Of a stretch of DNA of 64,000 nucleotides, positions 9,913-22,059 are shown one piece after another. Source of the stretch: Rhodobiaceae bacterium (lineage in GTDB: Bacteria; Pseudomonadota; Alphaproteobacteria; Rhizobiales; NORP267); assembly GCA_020441905.1 (NCBI GenBank), contig JAGRLG010000043.1:1-64000 (forward strand). The letters run 5' to 3'. Position 1 is the stretch's first letter; every line of letters starts with the position of its first letter. Both the position numbers and the translations under genes were made by a program. The notes under the pieces are model-generated. The model did no database searches and was not told where the DNA came from. It saw nothing but the letters and a program-made list of their open reading frames with translations.

Positions 9913-11928
9913 CTACACGTCTATGCCCGACGTATCGGCGAATTCGGCGCGTTCCTGGATGAACTCGAAGCGCGCTTCCGCCTTGTTGCCCATAAGACGG
10001 TCCACCGCTCCTGCGGTGGCGTCTTCCTCGTCCTGGCGCAACACCACCCGCAGCAAGGTGCGGTGCTCCGGGGCCATGGTCGTCTCCTTGAGCTGCGCCG
10101 GCATCATTTCGCCCAGGCCCTTGAAGCGCCCGATATCCAGCTTGCCGCGCCCGGAGAATTCCGTCTCGATCAGCAGGTCCTTGTGGGCGTCGTCGCGGGC
10201 ATAGAGCGTCTTGCCGCCCTGGCTGATGCGGTAGAGCGGGGGCACCGCGAGATAGAGGTGCCCGGTGCGGATCAGCTGAGGCATCTCGCGGAAAAAATAG
10301 GTGATGAGCAGCGAGGCGATGTGGGCGCCGTCGACATCGGCGTCGGTCATAATGATGACCTTGTCGTAGCGCAGGTCGCCCTCCCGGTAATGCTTGCCGC
10401 TGCCGCAGCCCAGCGCCTGCATCAGGTCGGCCAGCTGCTGGTTTGCCTTCAGCTTGTCGCCGCCGGCGCTGGCGACATTGAGGATCTTGCCGCGCAACGG
10501 CAACACCGCCTGGGTGGCGCGGTTGCGCGCCTGCTTGGCCGAGCCGCCCGCCGAGTCGCCCTCGACGATGAATATTTCGGTGCCCTCGGCTGCCTGGCGG
10601 GTGCAATCGGCGAGCTTGCCCGGCAGGCGCAGCTTGCGTGTCGCCGCCTTGCGGCTGACTTCCTTTTCCTGGCGCCGCTTGAGCCTCTCCTCGGCGCGGT
10701 CGACGATCCAGTCGATCAGCTTGCCAGCCTGGGCCGGATTCTGCGCCAGCCAGTGATCGAAGGGGTCGCGTATCGCCTGCTCGACGATGCGCGAGGCTTC
10801 CACCGTGGCCAGGCGGTCCTTGGTCTGGCCCTGGAATTCCGGCTCGCGGATAAAGACCGAAAGCATCGCCCCGGCGGTTCCCATCAGGTCCTCGGCGGTG
10901 ACCTGGGCCATTTTCTTGTTGCCGGCCAATTCGCCATAGGCGCGCAAACCCTTCAGCAGCGCTGCCCGCATTCCGGCCTCATGCGTGCCGCCCTCCGGCG
11001 TCGGCACGGTGTTGCAATAGGATGAGACAAAGCCGTCGTCATTGAACCAGGCAACGGCCCATTCCACCGAGCCGTGGCCGCCCGGCTTTTTTGCCGAGCC
11101 GGCGAACATGTCGTTCGTCACCAGCGTCTTGCCGGAAAGTTCGCTGCCCAGAAAATCGCGCAGGCCGCCGGGAAAATGCAGCACTTCGCTGGCCGGAACA
11201 TTGTCGTTCTCGCCGATCAGTTCGCTGGCGCAGGTCCAGCGGATCTCGACGCCGCCAAACAGATAAGCCTTGGAGCGCGCCATCCGGAACAGCTGTTTGG
11301 GGCGAAAGCGCCCGGCGCCGAAGATCTCCGGGTCGGGGTGAAAGCGCACCTTGGTGCCGCGCCGGTTGTGCACCGGCCCCAGATGTTCCAGAGGGCCTCG
11401 GGGCTGCCCGCGGCCAAATGCCTGGCGATAGAGCTGCTGGCCACGCGCCACCTCGATTTCAAGATCCTCCGACAGCGCGTTGACCACCGAAACGCCGACG
11501 CCGTGCAACCCTCCGGAGGTTTCATAGACCTTGGAATTGAATTTGCCGCCGGCATGCAGCGTGGTCATGATGACCTCGAGCGCCGACTTGTCCTTGAATT
11601 TCGGATGCGGATCGACCGGAATGCCGCGCCCGTTATCGGTTACCGTCAGATAGCCGTCGGCGCCCAGCTCCACCGCGATCCACGAGGCGTGCCCGGCCAC
11701 CGCCTCGTCCATCGCGTTGTCGATCACCTCGGCGAACAGGTGGTGCAGCGCCTTTTCGTCCGTGCCGCCGATATACATGCCCGGCCGCCGGCGCACCGGC
11801 TCCAGGCCCTCGAGAACCTCGATATCCCGCGCCGTGTAGGAATCGCCCGCCACCGGCGCTGGCGCCTCGGCGCCGCCGTTCCTGGCGGGAGGATCAAGTG
11901 AATCGAAGAGGCTTTCGGTCTTTGCCAT
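9913..11928 (-). CDS. parE: DNA topoisomerase IV subunit B (ParE)
   Basis: ATPase subunit (671 aa) of topoisomerase IV, which unlinks replicated chromosomes with ParC (encoded at 43957-46203). GHKL ATPase features are present: EVIDNAMDEAVAGHA, TVTDNGRGIPVD and GGLHGVGVSVVNAL. The TOPRIM domain has EGDSAGGSAKQARNR and later TDADVDGAHI. QTKDRL and the absence of a GyrB-type insertion favour ParE over GyrB. The 25-residue N-terminal extension before YTARDIEVLEGLEPVRRRPG is typical of rhizobial ParE. ATG 11928 faces the divergent thioredoxin-fold gene across about 210 bp. Confidence 0.95.
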   Translation of the reverse strand: MAKTESLFDSLDPPARNGGAEAPAPVAGDSYTARDIEVLEGLEPVRRRPGMYIGGTDEKALHHLFAEVIDNAMDEAVAGHASWIAVELGADGYLTVTDNGRGIPVDPHPKFKDKSALEVIMTTLHAGGKFNSKVYETSGGLHGVGVSVVNALSEDLEIEVARGQQLYRQAFGRGQPRGPLEHLGPVHNRRGTKVRFHPDPEIFGAGRFRPKQLFRMARSKAYLFGGVEIRWTCASELIGENDNVPASEVLHFPGGLRDFLGSELSGKTLVTNDMFAGSAKKPGGHGSVEWAVAWFNDDGFVSSYCNTVPTPEGGTHEAGMRAALLKGLRAYGELAGNKKMAQVTAEDLMGTAGAMLSVFIREPEFQGQTKDRLATVEASRIVEQAIRDPFDHWLAQNPAQAGKLIDWIVDRAEERLKRRQEKEVSRKAATRKLRLPGKLADCTRQAAEGTEIFIVEGDSAGGSAKQARNRATQAVLPLRGKILNVASAGGDKLKANQQLADLMQALGCGSGKHYREGDLRYDKVIIMTDADVDGAHIASLLITYFFREMPQLIRTGHLYLAVPPLYRISQGGKTLYARDDAHKDLLIETEFSGRGKLDIGRFKGLGEMMPAQLKETTMAPEHRTLLRVVLRQDEEDATAGAVDRLMGNKAEARFEFIQERAEFADTSGIDV

Positions 11929-16216: not shown

Positions 16217-16425
16217 TTATTCCGCTCACAGCAGCCTCGCATTCCATCGCGCCTCCGCGCAGATCGCCGACTGAGGGCACGCGCGGCCGCGCTGCTTGCG
16301 CTGAACCCGGGCGTCTCCTGCAACCTATTGCGTGTCTTGCGCAATCCACTCTCATGCTATTATTTTCAATTGCGCAACGTCGGAAAACGGCTTTTGGCAG
16401 CATCAGGAATTGGGGGGGCAATTCC

Positions 16426-19400
16426 ATGAAAGCATTGTCTTATTTGTTTGTCATTTTTGCGTTTCTAGCCGCCGGCATACCGGTTCCGGTTGCTGCCCAG
16501 GAAATTCTTGCCCCGCCGGTGCGCGAGGCGCTGGAGCGCATCAGCGCCGGCAAGGCCAGTGATGCAGACCGCGCATTGCTCTTTTCCAACAACGACGGTG
16601 TAAATTCTGCCCGTCTCAATGGCGAGATCACGGACCGCGCCTACCAGGCCGCGCAGCGCGACTTCGCCGATCTCAACAAGCGTTTCGCGCAAGAGTCGGC
16701 CAGGGCCGCGGGCGCCGATTTCACAGTGCAAAAAAGCTCGTCCAAGTCATTCAGCCCCGGCACCGATTCCGACTACATCACTATGGTCAAGGACAAGAAG
16801 CAGATCGCCAACATGCAGCGCGGCTACAACAGCCGCGTCAACGAGTTCCTCGCCAATAACGGCGTCGAATCCGGACGCACCGACTGGCACAACAAGCTTG
16901 ACACCGACTTCATGGCCGATCCGCGCCACATCACCGATCCGGCCGATTTCCGCGACATCGCCAAGATGAACAACGATGCCTACAAGAACCGCTTCGCCGC
17001 TGAATACGAGAAGATAAGCAGGGCCAAGGACGCGAGCAGGATCGGCCCGGCCCATGTCAACGGTTACATGGAGGAAATGAACGACTTTGCGGCCAAGAAG
17101 AGCGGCCATATCGATGACATGCTGGCCAAGGGGCCGTCCCATTTTTCCGATCCAGCCAATCGCGCCGAACTGTTCCGGACCATGGCTCAGGAGCAGAAAT
17201 ACATCTCCCGCCTCGAGGCGCTGGACGATCATTTGCGGGCTCAGGAAGGCCTGCCGCCGCGCGGCCGTGGCAATACGCTCGCCGCGCAAGGGTCCGCGCG
17301 CGGTCCCGGAACGGCGCTGGCGACCAAGGAGGCCCATGCGTCGGCGGCGGCGTCCCGTCTCGGCGCAATGGAAGACATCGCCGAAACCATGAGCCAGGTG
17401 GCGCGCAAGAACCCGTCCTTCAATCCCAACGCCGCCGACGATATAGCGAAGATCATCGAGGGGCTGCCGTCGGAGCGTCGGGCTGGCGCGCTGGCGCGAA
17501 TTCGCGCCAATGACGGCCAGAAAATGGTGGATAGCATCGTTTCCGCCAGTACCAAGTCCGGCCGCATTCCAGCCGGCAAGCCGGGCTTGGGCGAGGCGTT
17601 GGCCAAAGGCATCAAGGGCGCCCCAGACCCGGTTCCAGGCGCTGGAATGCGCAAGCTGCTGGGTGACGGCGCCGCCAAGGTGATGGAGGTCGTTGGACGT
17701 CTCGGTGCCGCCTACGACGTCGCCAGCGCCGCGTTTCAGCTCAACGACTACTACAAGAACATCATGCTTGCGCTCGACCCGACGACGTCGGCGGAAGAGG
17801 CCGATGCCGCGCTGACCCGGGCTGAGAAAATTGCCAAGGGGCTGGCCGAGGCAGGCATTATCGGCGCCATCACCGAGGCTTCGCCGACCGCGGCGGTGGC
17901 GCTTGGAACCTGGACCCTGACCCGCCACGGCGGGGAATGGATCCTGGCAAATACCAAGACCGGGCAGAAGATCAACCGCTTCGCCACCGGATTTTTCAGG
18001 ATGAACCTCGAAGCCTGGGACGCGGCGCGCGACTGGTGGACCGGCAAGGCCGAAAAGGACGAGGAACACGCGCGCAATATGTGTTCCAAGTTCATGCAGG
18101 CGGTGCGCGACGAAAAGGTCAAGTTGCGAAAGGGCTACAAGGTCCTCGACGTCTGCAACGCCTTCCGGAAGGGCGAACTGGTATCGGCCATGATCGAGCT
18201 TGCCGAGGTCGGGCCGGACGATGTCAAGACAGAGCCAGTGCAGGCCCTGGCTCCGGCCAGTTGCGATGTCTCCGCCAATCGCGCGGCGATCGCCGACCTG
18301 AAGGCGAAGGCCGGGCAGGGCGGAGATGAAATTTCCGCCCATGTCGCCCTGCTCGAGCGGGTGAACGGCGATCTGGCTGCCGTCGATGCCGCCTATGAAG
18401 TGGCAAAGAAGGACTATGTCGCCGGCCGTTTCGACAAGGTGAGCGAGGGACTTGAGGGCGCGCGTGCGAGGCTGGCGGCCCTGGGCGGGTCGCCGGATTG
18501 CCCCGACCTTGCGACAAGGCTGGACAACGCGCTGGAAAAGAACGCCAAAACGCAGGACGCACTTGCCGAAACCGCCGCCGCCATCAAGTCCTGCGAGGCC
18601 GCACCGCTGGCGGCGCTCAAGGAACGCTATGCCGCGCTGTCGCATTCAGGGCTCGCCAAGGCGCTGGCCCGCGCCGAGGCGTTGTCGGCAATCCACGGCC
18701 AGGCCCGCTCGGCGGCCGCAAGCTACAAGTCCGGCGACATTGCCGCCGCGTATGAAACGGCGCGCGCGGCGCGCGACAAGCTGTCCGCCATCGGCGCCCC
18801 GTCCTGCGCCGCGCTGGCAGGTGGCCTGAAGGATCTGGTCGATGGCTTGGCAGGGATTCGCGAATTGGCGGCCGAGGCGCAGGGCGCGATCTCCGCTTGC
18901 AATGTCGAGCTGATGCAGGGCTTTCGCGGGGAATTGGCGGACATCTCCCAGGCATGGGCGGTGGCACTGCGCGCGCGGCTGTCCTCCGCCATCGCCGATT
19001 GCCAGAAGGCGGCCGCGGAGGTTTCAGAACGGCCGGACCCGGCAAGGCTGGCAGCATTGCGCGAAGCCAATTGCCGCCAGCGCTTTGGAGAAGGCTACCG
19101 CGCTGGCCAGGTGCTCGAAGACGGCCGCCATGTCTGCCTGCCGTCCAAGGAGGTCGCCGACGCCGTCTGCCGCGCCAAACATGGCGACAATGTCCAGGCG
19201 GGAACGATCAGGGCCGACGGCTCTTACAATTGCTTCCTGACCCCGGCGGCCCAGCGCGAGGCGGCGGTCAAAGAGTGCCGGCGGCTCTATGGCAAGAAGT
19301 TCATACGCCTCGTCAGCACAAAGCAGGGCCTGCGATGCGAATATGCCAGGGGTGCCACCCACTCGGCCAAGAACTCGGCGGCGGTGCTGACCGCGATTGG

Positions 19401-19473
19401 CGGCATCATCGGCGCGATCGCCGTCAGCAAGGGCCATGGCAGCGGGAGTTCCTCCGGCTGCTGCGGCCACTAA
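16426..19473 (+). CDS. Giant exported Cys-module protein, function unknown
   Basis: A 1015-aa protein that I cannot assign. It has a signal peptide (residues 1-24, ending PVAA-QE). Residues 25-552 contain no cysteine: a charged helical part with YITMVKDKKQIANMQRGY, a linker near 280-310, and a more hydrophobic stretch (about 440-515, including AGIIGAITEASPTAAVALG). From 553 on there are helical modules bounded by cysteines (SCDV...DCPD, SCEA...SCAA, ACNV...DCQK) with TPR-like Y-x-A/S-G-D/R-x-A patterns. Then come three repeats with C883-C904, C915-C936 and C951-C971. The C-terminus has a hydrophobic segment and a Gly/Ser tail ending GCCGH. ATG 16426 has a G-rich site at 16412-16418. It may be an envelope or surface protein. 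Confidence 0.8.
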   Translation: MKALSYLFVIFAFLAAGIPVPVAAQEILAPPVREALERISAGKASDADRALLFSNNDGVNSARLNGEITDRAYQAAQRDFADLNKRFAQESARAAGADFTVQKSSSKSFSPGTDSDYITMVKDKKQIANMQRGYNSRVNEFLANNGVESGRTDWHNKLDTDFMADPRHITDPADFRDIAKMNNDAYKNRFAAEYEKISRAKDASRIGPAHVNGYMEEMNDFAAKKSGHIDDMLAKGPSHFSDPANRAELFRTMAQEQKYISRLEALDDHLRAQEGLPPRGRGNTLAAQGSARGPGTALATKEAHASAAASRLGAMEDIAETMSQVARKNPSFNPNAADDIAKIIEGLPSERRAGALARIRANDGQKMVDSIVSASTKSGRIPAGKPGLGEALAKGIKGAPDPVPGAGMRKLLGDGAAKVMEVVGRLGAAYDVASAAFQLNDYYKNIMLALDPTTSAEEADAALTRAEKIAKGLAEAGIIGAITEASPTAAVALGTWTLTRHGGEWILANTKTGQKINRFATGFFRMNLEAWDAARDWWTGKAEKDEEHARNMCSKFMQAVRDEKVKLRKGYKVLDVCNAFRKGELVSAMIELAEVGPDDVKTEPVQALAPASCDVSANRAAIADLKAKAGQGGDEISAHVALLERVNGDLAAVDAAYEVAKKDYVAGRFDKVSEGLEGARARLAALGGSPDCPDLATRLDNALEKNAKTQDALAETAAAIKSCEAAPLAALKERYAALSHSGLAKALARAEALSAIHGQARSAAASYKSGDIAAAYETARAARDKLSAIGAPSCAALAGGLKDLVDGLAGIRELAAEAQGAISACNVELMQGFRGELADISQAWAVALRARLSSAIADCQKAAAEVSERPDPARLAALREANCRQRFGEGYRAGQVLEDGRHVCLPSKEVADAVCRAKHGDNVQAGTIRADGSYNCFLTPAAQREAAVKECRRLYGKKFIRLVSTKQGLRCEYARGATHSAKNSAAVLTAIGGIIGAIAVSKGHGSGSSSGCCGH

Positions 19474-19514: not shown

Positions 19515-19814
19515 TTATCCTCTTTCGCGGTCCGATGGGCCGGCGAGGGCGCCTTGAATTAAATCCTGCCTCGCCGCGCGGCGCCGGTCGATGAGGCGCT
19601 CCAGTTCGTCCGGTAAAATGGTGCCCGGCAAGGCACACCTCGTCACCCTGACGGTGCCGTTGATGGCCATGCGTATCTCACGGTAGCGCGCTATTGCGGC
19701 GCCGCAGTCGGGGCAGGTGACAAGGTCGTCGTCCTTTGGCGGATTGTTGGGCACCAGAAAAGTATCGTGGCCGCAGTCCGGGCAACGATCATATTCGAAA
19801 CCCTTGATGTTCAT
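19515..19814 (-). CDS. Small zinc-ribbon protein
   Basis: A 99-aa protein with two CxxC pairs (RCPDCGHDTFL near residue 10 and VTCPDCGAAIARY near residue 37), the arrangement of a zinc ribbon. The C-terminal half is basic and helical (LERLIDRRRAARQDL). Such proteins bind nucleic acid or act as protein adaptors; no specific role can be given. ATG 19814 has GGAGG upstream at about 7 nt. It lies downstream of the ferredoxin gene on the same strand after a 114-bp gap and may share its transcript. Confidence 0.7.
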   Translation of the reverse strand: MNIKGFEYDRCPDCGHDTFLVPNNPPKDDDLVTCPDCGAAIARYREIRMAINGTVRVTRCALPGTILPDELERLIDRRRAARQDLIQGALAGPSDRERG

Positions 19815-19928
19815 CGGCGGCCTCCAGGAAAGGCAATCCAGGTCAGGACATAGTGTTTTCAAACATGGCGACTTATCGATGTTGCCGAATTGGCCCCCGA
19901 GGTTCGGTCGTCATCGTTGCGCCCATTC

Positions 19929-20138
19929 TCATATGCCCAGCATCGCCGGGGTGAATTTGAAGCTGACGGCGTCCCTGGCGCATTCCTGCCGGCAGGCGCC
20001 GCAATACCAGCACTCATCGGGGTATCGAACCACGGCGACGCCGTCTTCCATGTAGATGACATCGAGCGGGCAGTAGAGCGCGCACAACTCGCAGCCATTG
20101 CACCTTGCCTTGTCGATCACCGCGGACATGGCGCGCAT
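19929..20138 (-). CDS. 2[4Fe-4S] ferredoxin, AprB-like partner
   Basis: A 69-aa protein with two complete [4Fe-4S] motifs: CNGCELCALYCP and CWYCGACRQECA. It resembles the ferredoxin core of AprB, the electron-carrying subunit of adenylylsulfate reductase, but lacks AprB's C-terminal extension. It starts 10 nt after the stop of the AprA-like flavoprotein, so the pair is almost surely translated from one mRNA. GGGAGG is 2 nt from ATG 20138 and 11 nt from ATG 20129 (MSAVIDKARC); either start is possible. Confidence 0.88.
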   Translation of the reverse strand: MRAMSAVIDKARCNGCELCALYCPLDVIYMEDGVAVVRYPDECWYCGACRQECARDAVSFKFTPAMLGI

Positions 20139-20148
20139 TTCCTCCCGT

Positions 20149-21834
20149 TCAGGCGTCGTAAAGCAGGGTTTCGAAACGTGTCGCCACACCGTTGTCGCCC
20201 TCGCGCCGTGCCACAACCAGCCCGCACCAGTCGTCGCTGGATTCCGGAAAGTCGGAGCGGTGGTGATAGGGGCTGAAGCGCGACTCGGTGCGCGCCAGCG
20301 AGGTTTCGGCCACGATCTTGGCCACGGCGTGGATATTGACCGCCTCGTGGCAGCGCATCAGCGTGTGCAGGTCGCCGGCGGCCAGCTCGTCGCGGTAGGA
20401 GTTCAGCGCGTCGAGCTTGGCGATCCCCGCTTTCAGGCTTGTCTCGTTCTTTATCGGCCCGAAATGATCGGTGGTGATGATGCGCACCACGTTTTCGAAT
20501 TCACCCGGCGCCAGGCCGTTTTGCCGCTGCATCGGGGCAAAGACCCGCAGGCGCTCCTGCCTGAGTTCCTTTGCTTTCAGCGGCAGCAGGCGATTGCGCG
20601 CCCTGGCGTATTTCGCCGCCTGCTTGCCGGCGTAAAAGCCCCCCGCCACACACATGTGCAGGCAGCCCATCTGGTCCGAGGCATCGCCGGCGGCGAACAG
20701 GCCGGGCACGTTGGAGGCGCATGCTTCGTCGATCTTGATGCCGCTGCCGCATTGCTCGGACGGGCGCGCCTGCATCGGCTCGGATACCGTGAGCTCGATC
20801 ATGGCGCCCTCGCGGGCATAGCCCTTGGCCATGAGGAACTCGGGCAGCGTGTCCTTGTCGATGCCCAGGGTCGAGAACAGATGGGCCAGATCCGATGCCG
20901 ACAGGTGGCGCACATCGACATAGATCGGGCCGCGCCCGGCCTTGGTTTCGGTGAGCGCCGCCCACACCATGACATTGCGCGGCGCGGCGTCGCCTTGCGG
21001 GTGGTAGTCGGTCATGAAAGGCACGCCGAGGCCGTTGACCAGCTTGCCGCCCATGCCGAAGAAGGCGTTGAAGCCGGGGGCCGAAAAGCCTTTCGGCACG
21101 ATGGTCATGCGCACATATTCGACATTGGCCAGTTCCACCCCGGCGTCGAAGGCGGCGCGGTGCAGATCGCCGGTATTGGCCGGGCAGTACCACAGGTTGA
21201 AGGGATTGCCGGTCTGGCTCTTGAACATGCGGTTGGTGTTGCCGGTGGCGATCACCGTCGCCTTGGCCTGGATCTCGTAGAAATCGCCATTGCGCATGTC
21301 GTAGCCGCAAAATCCGGCCATCTCGCCCTCGTGCAGGCACAGTTTCGTCACCTGGACCCGGTTCAGCACCCGGCATTTGCGGCGCTTGACCTCCAGCGCC
21401 ATGGCCGGCTTCAGCCGCTGGCCGTTGAAATTGATCGAATAGGGGCCGGGCTGGCCCAGCGCCTGGGTGCGCAGATAGCTGCCGTCTTCCTGGCGCAGCG
21501 AGATCCCCATTTTCTCGATGCGCGCCATAGCCGCCGGCAGCTCGTCGCACAGCACCTTCTCGTGGATTCTCAGATTGGCGGCGCCGCGCGCCACCTTGCC
21601 GACATAAGCGAGATAGGCTTCGCGGGTGTCCCAGCTCTCGCCGGTTTCCATAAAGGCCATGAAATGGTCGATGCCGCCGGCGATGGCGCCGGAGCGCTGG
21701 ATATGGGCCTTGTCGACGATGAGAACGCTGGCGCCGCATTCCGCGGCCGCCATGGCCGTGTTCAGTCCGGCGGTGCCGCCGCCGATAATGGCCACGTCCG
21801 CTTTGACGCGGTGCGTCTTCCCGCCCAAATGCAT
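20149..21834 (-). CDS. AprA-like FAD-dependent oxidoreductase
   Basis: A 561-aa flavoprotein of the fumarate reductase/succinate dehydrogenase/AprA superfamily. The FAD dinucleotide motif VAIIGGGTAGLNTA lies near residues 14-27. RSGAIAGGIDHFMAF and GPYSINFNGQRLKP match the AprA type, and VPGLFAAGDASDQMG closes the FAD domain. With the adjacent ferredoxin it forms an AprAB-like unit; true AprAB interconverts APS and sulfite plus AMP. No ATP sulfurylase, AprM or Qmo gene is in this window, so the substrate is open. ATG 21834 fits the GGGGAG site better than GTG 21840. Confidence 0.85.
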   Translation of the reverse strand: MHLGGKTHRVKADVAIIGGGTAGLNTAMAAAECGASVLIVDKAHIQRSGAIAGGIDHFMAFMETGESWDTREAYLAYVGKVARGAANLRIHEKVLCDELPAAMARIEKMGISLRQEDGSYLRTQALGQPGPYSINFNGQRLKPAMALEVKRRKCRVLNRVQVTKLCLHEGEMAGFCGYDMRNGDFYEIQAKATVIATGNTNRMFKSQTGNPFNLWYCPANTGDLHRAAFDAGVELANVEYVRMTIVPKGFSAPGFNAFFGMGGKLVNGLGVPFMTDYHPQGDAAPRNVMVWAALTETKAGRGPIYVDVRHLSASDLAHLFSTLGIDKDTLPEFLMAKGYAREGAMIELTVSEPMQARPSEQCGSGIKIDEACASNVPGLFAAGDASDQMGCLHMCVAGGFYAGKQAAKYARARNRLLPLKAKELRQERLRVFAPMQRQNGLAPGEFENVVRIITTDHFGPIKNETSLKAGIAKLDALNSYRDELAAGDLHTLMRCHEAVNIHAVAKIVAETSLARTESRFSPYHHRSDFPESSDDWCGLVVARREGDNGVATRFETLLYDA

Positions 21835-22059
21835 CGCCACGGCTCCCCGTTCCCGTTGGCTGCGCCCAAGACTGAATAAATTTCTCTGAGTTATGTTCTA
21901 TCCCTCTGGAGTATATATGTTTGTTCCCTGACGCCCTCTTGGTGGAGCTTGGGATCACGCGGCGCGGTGGCGGCCTCCCTGCCGGGTACCTGGATGGTTG
22001 ATTATTCCGGCCAACCGCCCCCTTCGCCAGCATTGATCTTAGGGCCGGAACCCGGATGT

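Follow-up and report, generated by a model that had tools for sequence, protein, structure and literature searches.

A cysteine-patterned backbone with exchangeable N-terminal regions in a predicted exported protein encoded behind tRNA-Ser

The gene that follows tRNA-Ser (GCT) in the 64-kb window (the whole stretch of Rhodobiaceae DNA analysed here, 64,000 nucleotides) encodes a predicted exported protein of 1015 residues, P0001, that is made of three separately inherited blocks: residues 31–311, 389–608 and 609–1015 (all-against-all comparison). The last block is the backbone common to an undescribed protein family of the order, and its members carry unrelated N-terminal regions on it. Our preferred reading, to which we give a probability of about 0.5, is that P0001 is an exported scaffold, in the envelope or secreted, for the display of an exchangeable working domain at its N-terminus. 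The features of the locus are collected in Table 1.

The reading frame (16426–19473, + strand) is open throughout, and its GC content by codon position (0.65/0.50/0.79) marks it as a real gene. The product is a real, intact bacterial protein whose export is predicted from a signal peptide: the N-terminus, MKALSYLFVIFAFLAAGIPVPVAAQE, looks like a Sec signal in which V-A-A precedes the cut. Residues 1–552 contain no cysteine, and all 16 (at 553, 577, 613, 692, 723, 794, 825, 859, 883, 904, 915, 936, 951, 971, 1012 and 1013) fall within the last 463 residues, for which the probability by chance is 3e-6. Their successive spacings are 24, 36, 79, 31, 71, 31, 34, 24, 21, 11, 21, 15, 20, 41 and 1; the pairs 883/904, 915/936 and 951/971 have the forms C-x20-C, C-x20-C and C-x19-C, and the protein ends with GCCGH. 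The original prediction had described the signal peptide, the Cys-free 552 residues, these three pairs and the GCCGH end, all of which are borne out by the sequence and the Cys positions.

Table 1. Features of the P0001 locus (coordinates in the 64-kb window).
Feature	Coordinates	Strand	Basis
tRNA-Ser (GCT), upstream neighbour of P0001	16124..16216	+	ARAGORN
Pair of perfect TTGCGCAA palindromes (33 bp from start to start) between tRNA-Ser and P0001	16337..16377		
Perfect 7-bp inverted repeat GGAATTG/CAATTCC (GGAATTG-GGGGGG-CAATTCC), directly before ATG	16406..16425	+	Sequence, RNAfold
Signal peptide, residues 1–24 (predicted)	16426..16497	+	Sequence; hydrophobicity maximum at residues 7–23
Rare N-terminal domain, residues 31–311	16516..17358	+	Homologous to L075, L076 (E 9e-36, 5e-35)
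Middle region, residues 389–608, Gly/Ala-rich, ending with C553/C577 motif C-x23-C	17590..18249	+	Homologous to L059, L096/L052
Cys-bounded helical modules, residues 613–859, TPR-like	18262..19002	+	Cys ruler kept in relatives; model
Alpha-beta-beta Cys module 1, C883–C904	19072..19137	+	Independent HMM; model
Cys module 2, C915–C936	19168..19233	+	Independent HMM; model
Cys module 3, C951–C971	19276..19338	+	Independent HMM; model
Hydrophobic segment NSAAVLTAIGGIIGAIAV and Gly/Ser tail ending GCCGH, residues 983–1015	19372..19470	+	Conserved in relatives
Zinc-ribbon ORF	19518–19862	-	
Two-cluster ferredoxin ORF	19929–20216	-	
AprA/SdhA-like flavoprotein	20149–21840	-	

The backbone is recognised by a Cys ruler, which in P0001 reads 79-31-71-31-34 and then 21-11-21-15-20; the runs 31-71-31-34 (or 42-31-34) and 21-11-21-15-20 recur in relatives with little change. 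Besides the ruler (31-71-31-34, then 21-11-21-15-20), P0001 has the three C-R-x2-[YFHN]-G modules and the SAA..GIIG segment by which the family is defined. The Cys-rich EGF-like stretch (16-22-2-13-17) that precedes the C-terminal triplet in P0002, P0003 and L066 is absent from P0001. The closest C-terminal relative, L066 (Hyphomicrobiales bacterium OFTM20, a MAG), is 36% identical over residues 523–1015, and a paralogue of 1355 residues in the same genome (P0002; genome 2.81 Mb in 86 contigs) has only residues 609–1015 in common with P0001. A profile of the C-terminal region matches in 18 of 347 genomes of the order; with the N-terminal domain seen elsewhere in only two genomes, both of another genus, this is the patchy distribution that had been predicted.

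The copies in the family vary from full proteins down to short ORFs with almost nothing but C-terminal modules. Three short ORFs (L018:8477–9391, L060:5728–6663 and L061:5382–6308) consist of little more than C-R-x2-[YH]-G...C modules, with five or six of them in a tandem row, and the one in L018 adjoins a ClpB-like gene. Another member (L056:6321–8923, - strand) lies in two overlapping frames, one for the helical part and one for the Cys-module part, possibly as a result of frameshift or misassembly.

At least seven unrelated N-terminal regions stand on this backbone (all-against-all comparison). They include the GTDSD domain of P0001, a type in L059 and L096, another in P0002 and P0003, a fourth in L051, L054 and P0004, a FecR N-terminus in L017 and L065 (Pfam), and the unshared N-termini of L053, L056 and P0005; L057 is similar to L055 and weakly to P0002. 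With several unrelated N-termini on one backbone, N-terminal exchange is the rule in the family.

The N-terminal domain of P0001 is rare. Among the genomes searched it occurs elsewhere in only two (G363 and G425), both of one other genus of the same order, and no further convincing copy was found in 289 and 240 genomes of the class or in 398 and 294 of the phylum. Its carriers in G363 and G425 are exported proteins of 860 residues whose remaining parts are unrelated to P0001, so that the domain there stands on a different backbone. Four motifs are invariant among P0001, L075 and L076 (alignment A4): SPGTDSD-[YF]-IT, YN, L-[DN]-TDFMA-x-P and NNDAYK. At these two loci (L075:8950–12162 and L076:9011–12346, both - strand) the gene of the relative follows one for a long membrane-type protein that belongs to no known family, and the two reading frames overlap. 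No enzyme family or PDB profile matches residues 31–311, and the model of the N-terminal part, made from a single sequence, is poor (pLDDT 59.5), at which a search with its fold is meaningless. The GTDSD domain is without a recognisable family or fold among the libraries searched. The order of G-T-D-S-D, a likely helix and then L-x-T-D recalls the D-x-D ... D of the nucleotidyltransferase (Pol beta-like) superfamily; this assignment is not supported, as the hG[GS] motif is absent before GTDSD (alignment A4) and no profile or fold match was obtained.

The middle region has a different set of relatives, matching L059 with E 7e-20 and L096/L052 with E 3e-8 (alignment A3), and its end is also homologous to L066 (alignment A5). 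L059 and L096, which share the middle region with P0001, have N-termini of another kind.

An AlphaFold2 model of residues 523–1015, computed from an alignment of two sequences only (P0001 and L066), has a mean pLDDT of 78 and consists of helix hairpins at 615–866 (pLDDT about 90), three alpha-beta-beta units at 872–973 and a disordered tail. The helix hairpins and the Cys spacing, which is fixed in relatives, agree with the earlier description of helical modules bounded by cysteines; the two helical modules are only weakly alike within the protein (z = 4.5). The C-terminal repeats that had been noticed are also real: modules 1 and 2 align with z = 8.7, a score that none of 500 shuffles equalled, and an HMM built from other proteins alone recovers all three. 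The model corrects the earlier description in predicting them as three alpha-beta-beta modules. The rod proposal is partly supported: a stack of helix hairpins is predicted for the Cys-bounded part, but the protein as a whole is not one rod and is composed of three separately inherited blocks. When its regions are followed separately, as had been suggested, the modules are recovered in relatives alone or in other combinations. The hydrophobic segment is kept in P0002, P0003, P0004, L066 and L017; because relatives continue past it with hydrophilic Pro/Arg-rich tails that contain one more Cys pair, a membrane anchor in P0001 is unproven, and in the model residues 983–1015 have pLDDT below 50.

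Database comparisons of the whole of P0001 with Pfam, NCBIfam, PADLOC and PDB sequences give nothing significant, in keeping with the earlier view that no named family has this architecture, and no full-length match to a characterised family was obtained. PHROGs yields only weak matches (E 0.012 and 0.061), plasmid and phage collections contain no match, and three scans of viral contigs reveal no relative. Foldseek of the 523–1015 model against the PDB gives no significant match (best E 0.19), with BamD and TPR proteins among the weak ones. The predicted stack of helix hairpins recalls TPR/BamD-like proteins, and by eye the helical modules show a TPR-like motif, Y-x2-A-x3-Y-x2-G-D-x3-A-x3-L-x2-A; unlike those proteins, the P0001 modules have Cys at fixed spacing as their boundaries, and the Pfam TPR models match neither P0001 nor its C-terminal half. 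The Cys-module region gives a weak match to the SPOR domain (PF05036; E 1.4), whose 9.8 bits lie below the cut-off of 21; SPOR domains, moreover, do not have the conserved signature C-R-x2-[YFH]-G...C. The C-terminal modules do not match known cell-wall-binding families, and a literature search found no published description of the backbone family. The family is unnamed in every library searched, and its elements (exported, TPR-like, Cys-stapled, with an exchangeable domain) are of kinds already known.

Many relatives have a recurrent genetic neighbour. A gene whose product looks periplasmic and has PDZ, Sel1 and/or peptidoglycan-binding domains (in one case trypsin-PDZ) adjoins ten family genes (L013, L014, L096, L056, L057, L053, L054, L055, L059 and L015), and at several family loci this partner is on the same strand and overlaps or nearly touches the family gene. 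In the genome of P0001 such a gene adjoins the paralogue P0002; the 64-kb window around P0001 itself has no match to one. P0005 has a different upstream protein with a sub-threshold peptidoglycan-binding match, the upstream protein of the FecR-type members has a segment in common with the trypsin-PDZ protein, and the L066 and L051 loci are cut by contig ends. These partners, encoded beside most family members, are of the HtrA/DegP type with Sel1 and PG_binding_1 and are neighbours, not homologues. Next to P0001, and convergent to it, the window contains a zinc-ribbon ORF, a two-cluster ferredoxin ORF and an AprA/SdhA-like flavoprotein (19518–21840, - strand); ORFs 20098–21879 (+) and 20501–22033 (-) were discarded as neighbours because they are wrong frames over the flavoprotein gene.

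Under the preferred reading P0001 would be exported via Sec, after which its conserved Cys pairs would oxidise and lock the backbone into a scaffold that is stiff and resists proteases. This backbone may tether the protein to the cell wall or to the outer surface and may act together with the periplasmic PDZ/Sel1/peptidoglycan-binding proteins that neighbouring genes usually encode, with the N-terminal domain as the exchangeable working part. The invariant acidic motifs GTDSD and TDFMA look like a metal-dependent active site, and for this reason the N-terminal domain of P0001 is probably an enzyme or effector, perhaps directed against a target in or outside the envelope. Against this reading it counts that the usual partner gene is not beside P0001, that the N-terminal domain matches no enzyme family or fold and has a poor single-sequence model, and that the C-terminal modules match no known cell-wall-binding family. 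A more specific proposal, which we consider unlikely, is an inverted polymorphic effector system in which a constant, disulfide-stapled, wall-associated C-terminal backbone would carry interchangeable N-terminal catalytic domains, that of P0001 being a new metal-dependent enzyme class (SPGTDSD, L-x-TDFMA), with the PDZ/Sel1/peptidoglycan-binding partners serving for processing or docking. Because the family can be recognised by its Cys ruler, repeated genetic partner and exchangeable N-termini, its members can be identified and tested as a set. Should the N-terminal regions prove to be effectors, exchange in this family would run opposite to that in the known polymorphic toxins, and the GTDSD domain would represent a class of enzymes for which no fold is known.

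The domains encoded next door (PDZ, Sel1, PG_binding_1 and once Trypsin_2), in an operon-like order with short gaps or overlaps, would also suit a periplasmic structural or quality-control protein, whose TPR-like, disulfide-stapled backbone would be an adaptor or substrate receptor for the HtrA-like PDZ/Sel1 proteins and whose N-termini would bind or sense and not be enzymes. The S41 protease also near L059 and the FecR N-terminus of L017 and L065 are consistent with such a role. P0001, however, is without a PDZ/Sel1 neighbour, and a separately inherited N-terminal domain with invariant acidic motifs fits a working domain better; we rate the adaptor as a possible but less likely alternative. 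A still more doubtful one is a polymorphic-toxin-like protein whose toxin would be N-terminal and directed against other bacteria or against eukaryotic neighbours. The N-terminal domain of L059 and L096 (L059:3720–5000 and L096:2950–4420) has three ordered motifs that by eye resemble those of class II adenylate-cyclase toxins, which is a lead only, as the domain has no Pfam match up to E 10 and no match to a profile of a solved structure in the PDB.

Exchangeable domains on a conserved exported backbone do recall the polymorphic toxin systems, in which long proteins exported via Sec, some of them containing helical repeats, likewise have a terminal domain that can be exchanged. Those systems, however, are described by toxin domains at the C-terminus (Zhang et al. 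2012, PMC3482391), whereas here the exchanged region is N-terminal and the constant region is C-terminal and Cys-rich. P0001 has a constant part and an exchangeable domain, with its export inferred from the signal peptide, but neither a variable toxin domain at the C-terminus nor an adjacent immunity gene: no immunity-like gene was found beside it, the next genes being the zinc-ribbon, ferredoxin and flavoprotein genes on the opposite strand. A surface adhesin or appendage, in which a stiff rod anchored by the hydrophobic C-terminal segment would display the Cys-free N-terminal half, agrees with the long helical stack in the model, the conservation of that segment and the variation of the N-terminal domain between relatives. 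It is nevertheless very improbable, since the segment is short and of low confidence, relatives have long hydrophilic tails after it, and neither an adhesin family nor a sortase or autotransporter element was matched.

The P0001 gene stands alone behind tRNA-Ser and is a variable-site gene. The tRNA ends 209 bp upstream of its start codon, as expected from the description of the gene as lying directly after tRNA-Ser. In a genome of the same family (G002) the GST gene, one more upstream gene and tRNA-Ser are in the same order and P0001 is absent, its place being taken by ORFs for what look like a GMC-type dehydrogenase, its small subunit or another one, and a cytochrome c. The comparison of this locus that had been called for thus finds other genes at the site in a relative; presence is not uniform and the site is variable, while the other family members, which are without this gene order, speak neither for nor against its variability. 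Neither an att repeat at tRNA-Ser nor a composition anomaly was seen, and on these two counts insertion by an island at tRNA-Ser is not supported; a recent transfer of the gene is at most plausible. In L066 (L066:2162–3865) the family gene adjoins gyrB, and gyrB (window 9913–11928) also lies ~4.5 kb upstream of P0001 in another arrangement, which is probably a coincidence.

Two short motifs lie between tRNA-Ser and the start codon. The TTGCGCAA palindrome occurs nowhere else in the 64-kb window, and no fetched locus except copies of this one contains the pair, which is possibly an operator. The inverted repeat directly before the ATG can form a hairpin of a kind that is common by chance, and the G-run in its loop is likely the ribosome-binding site of P0001.
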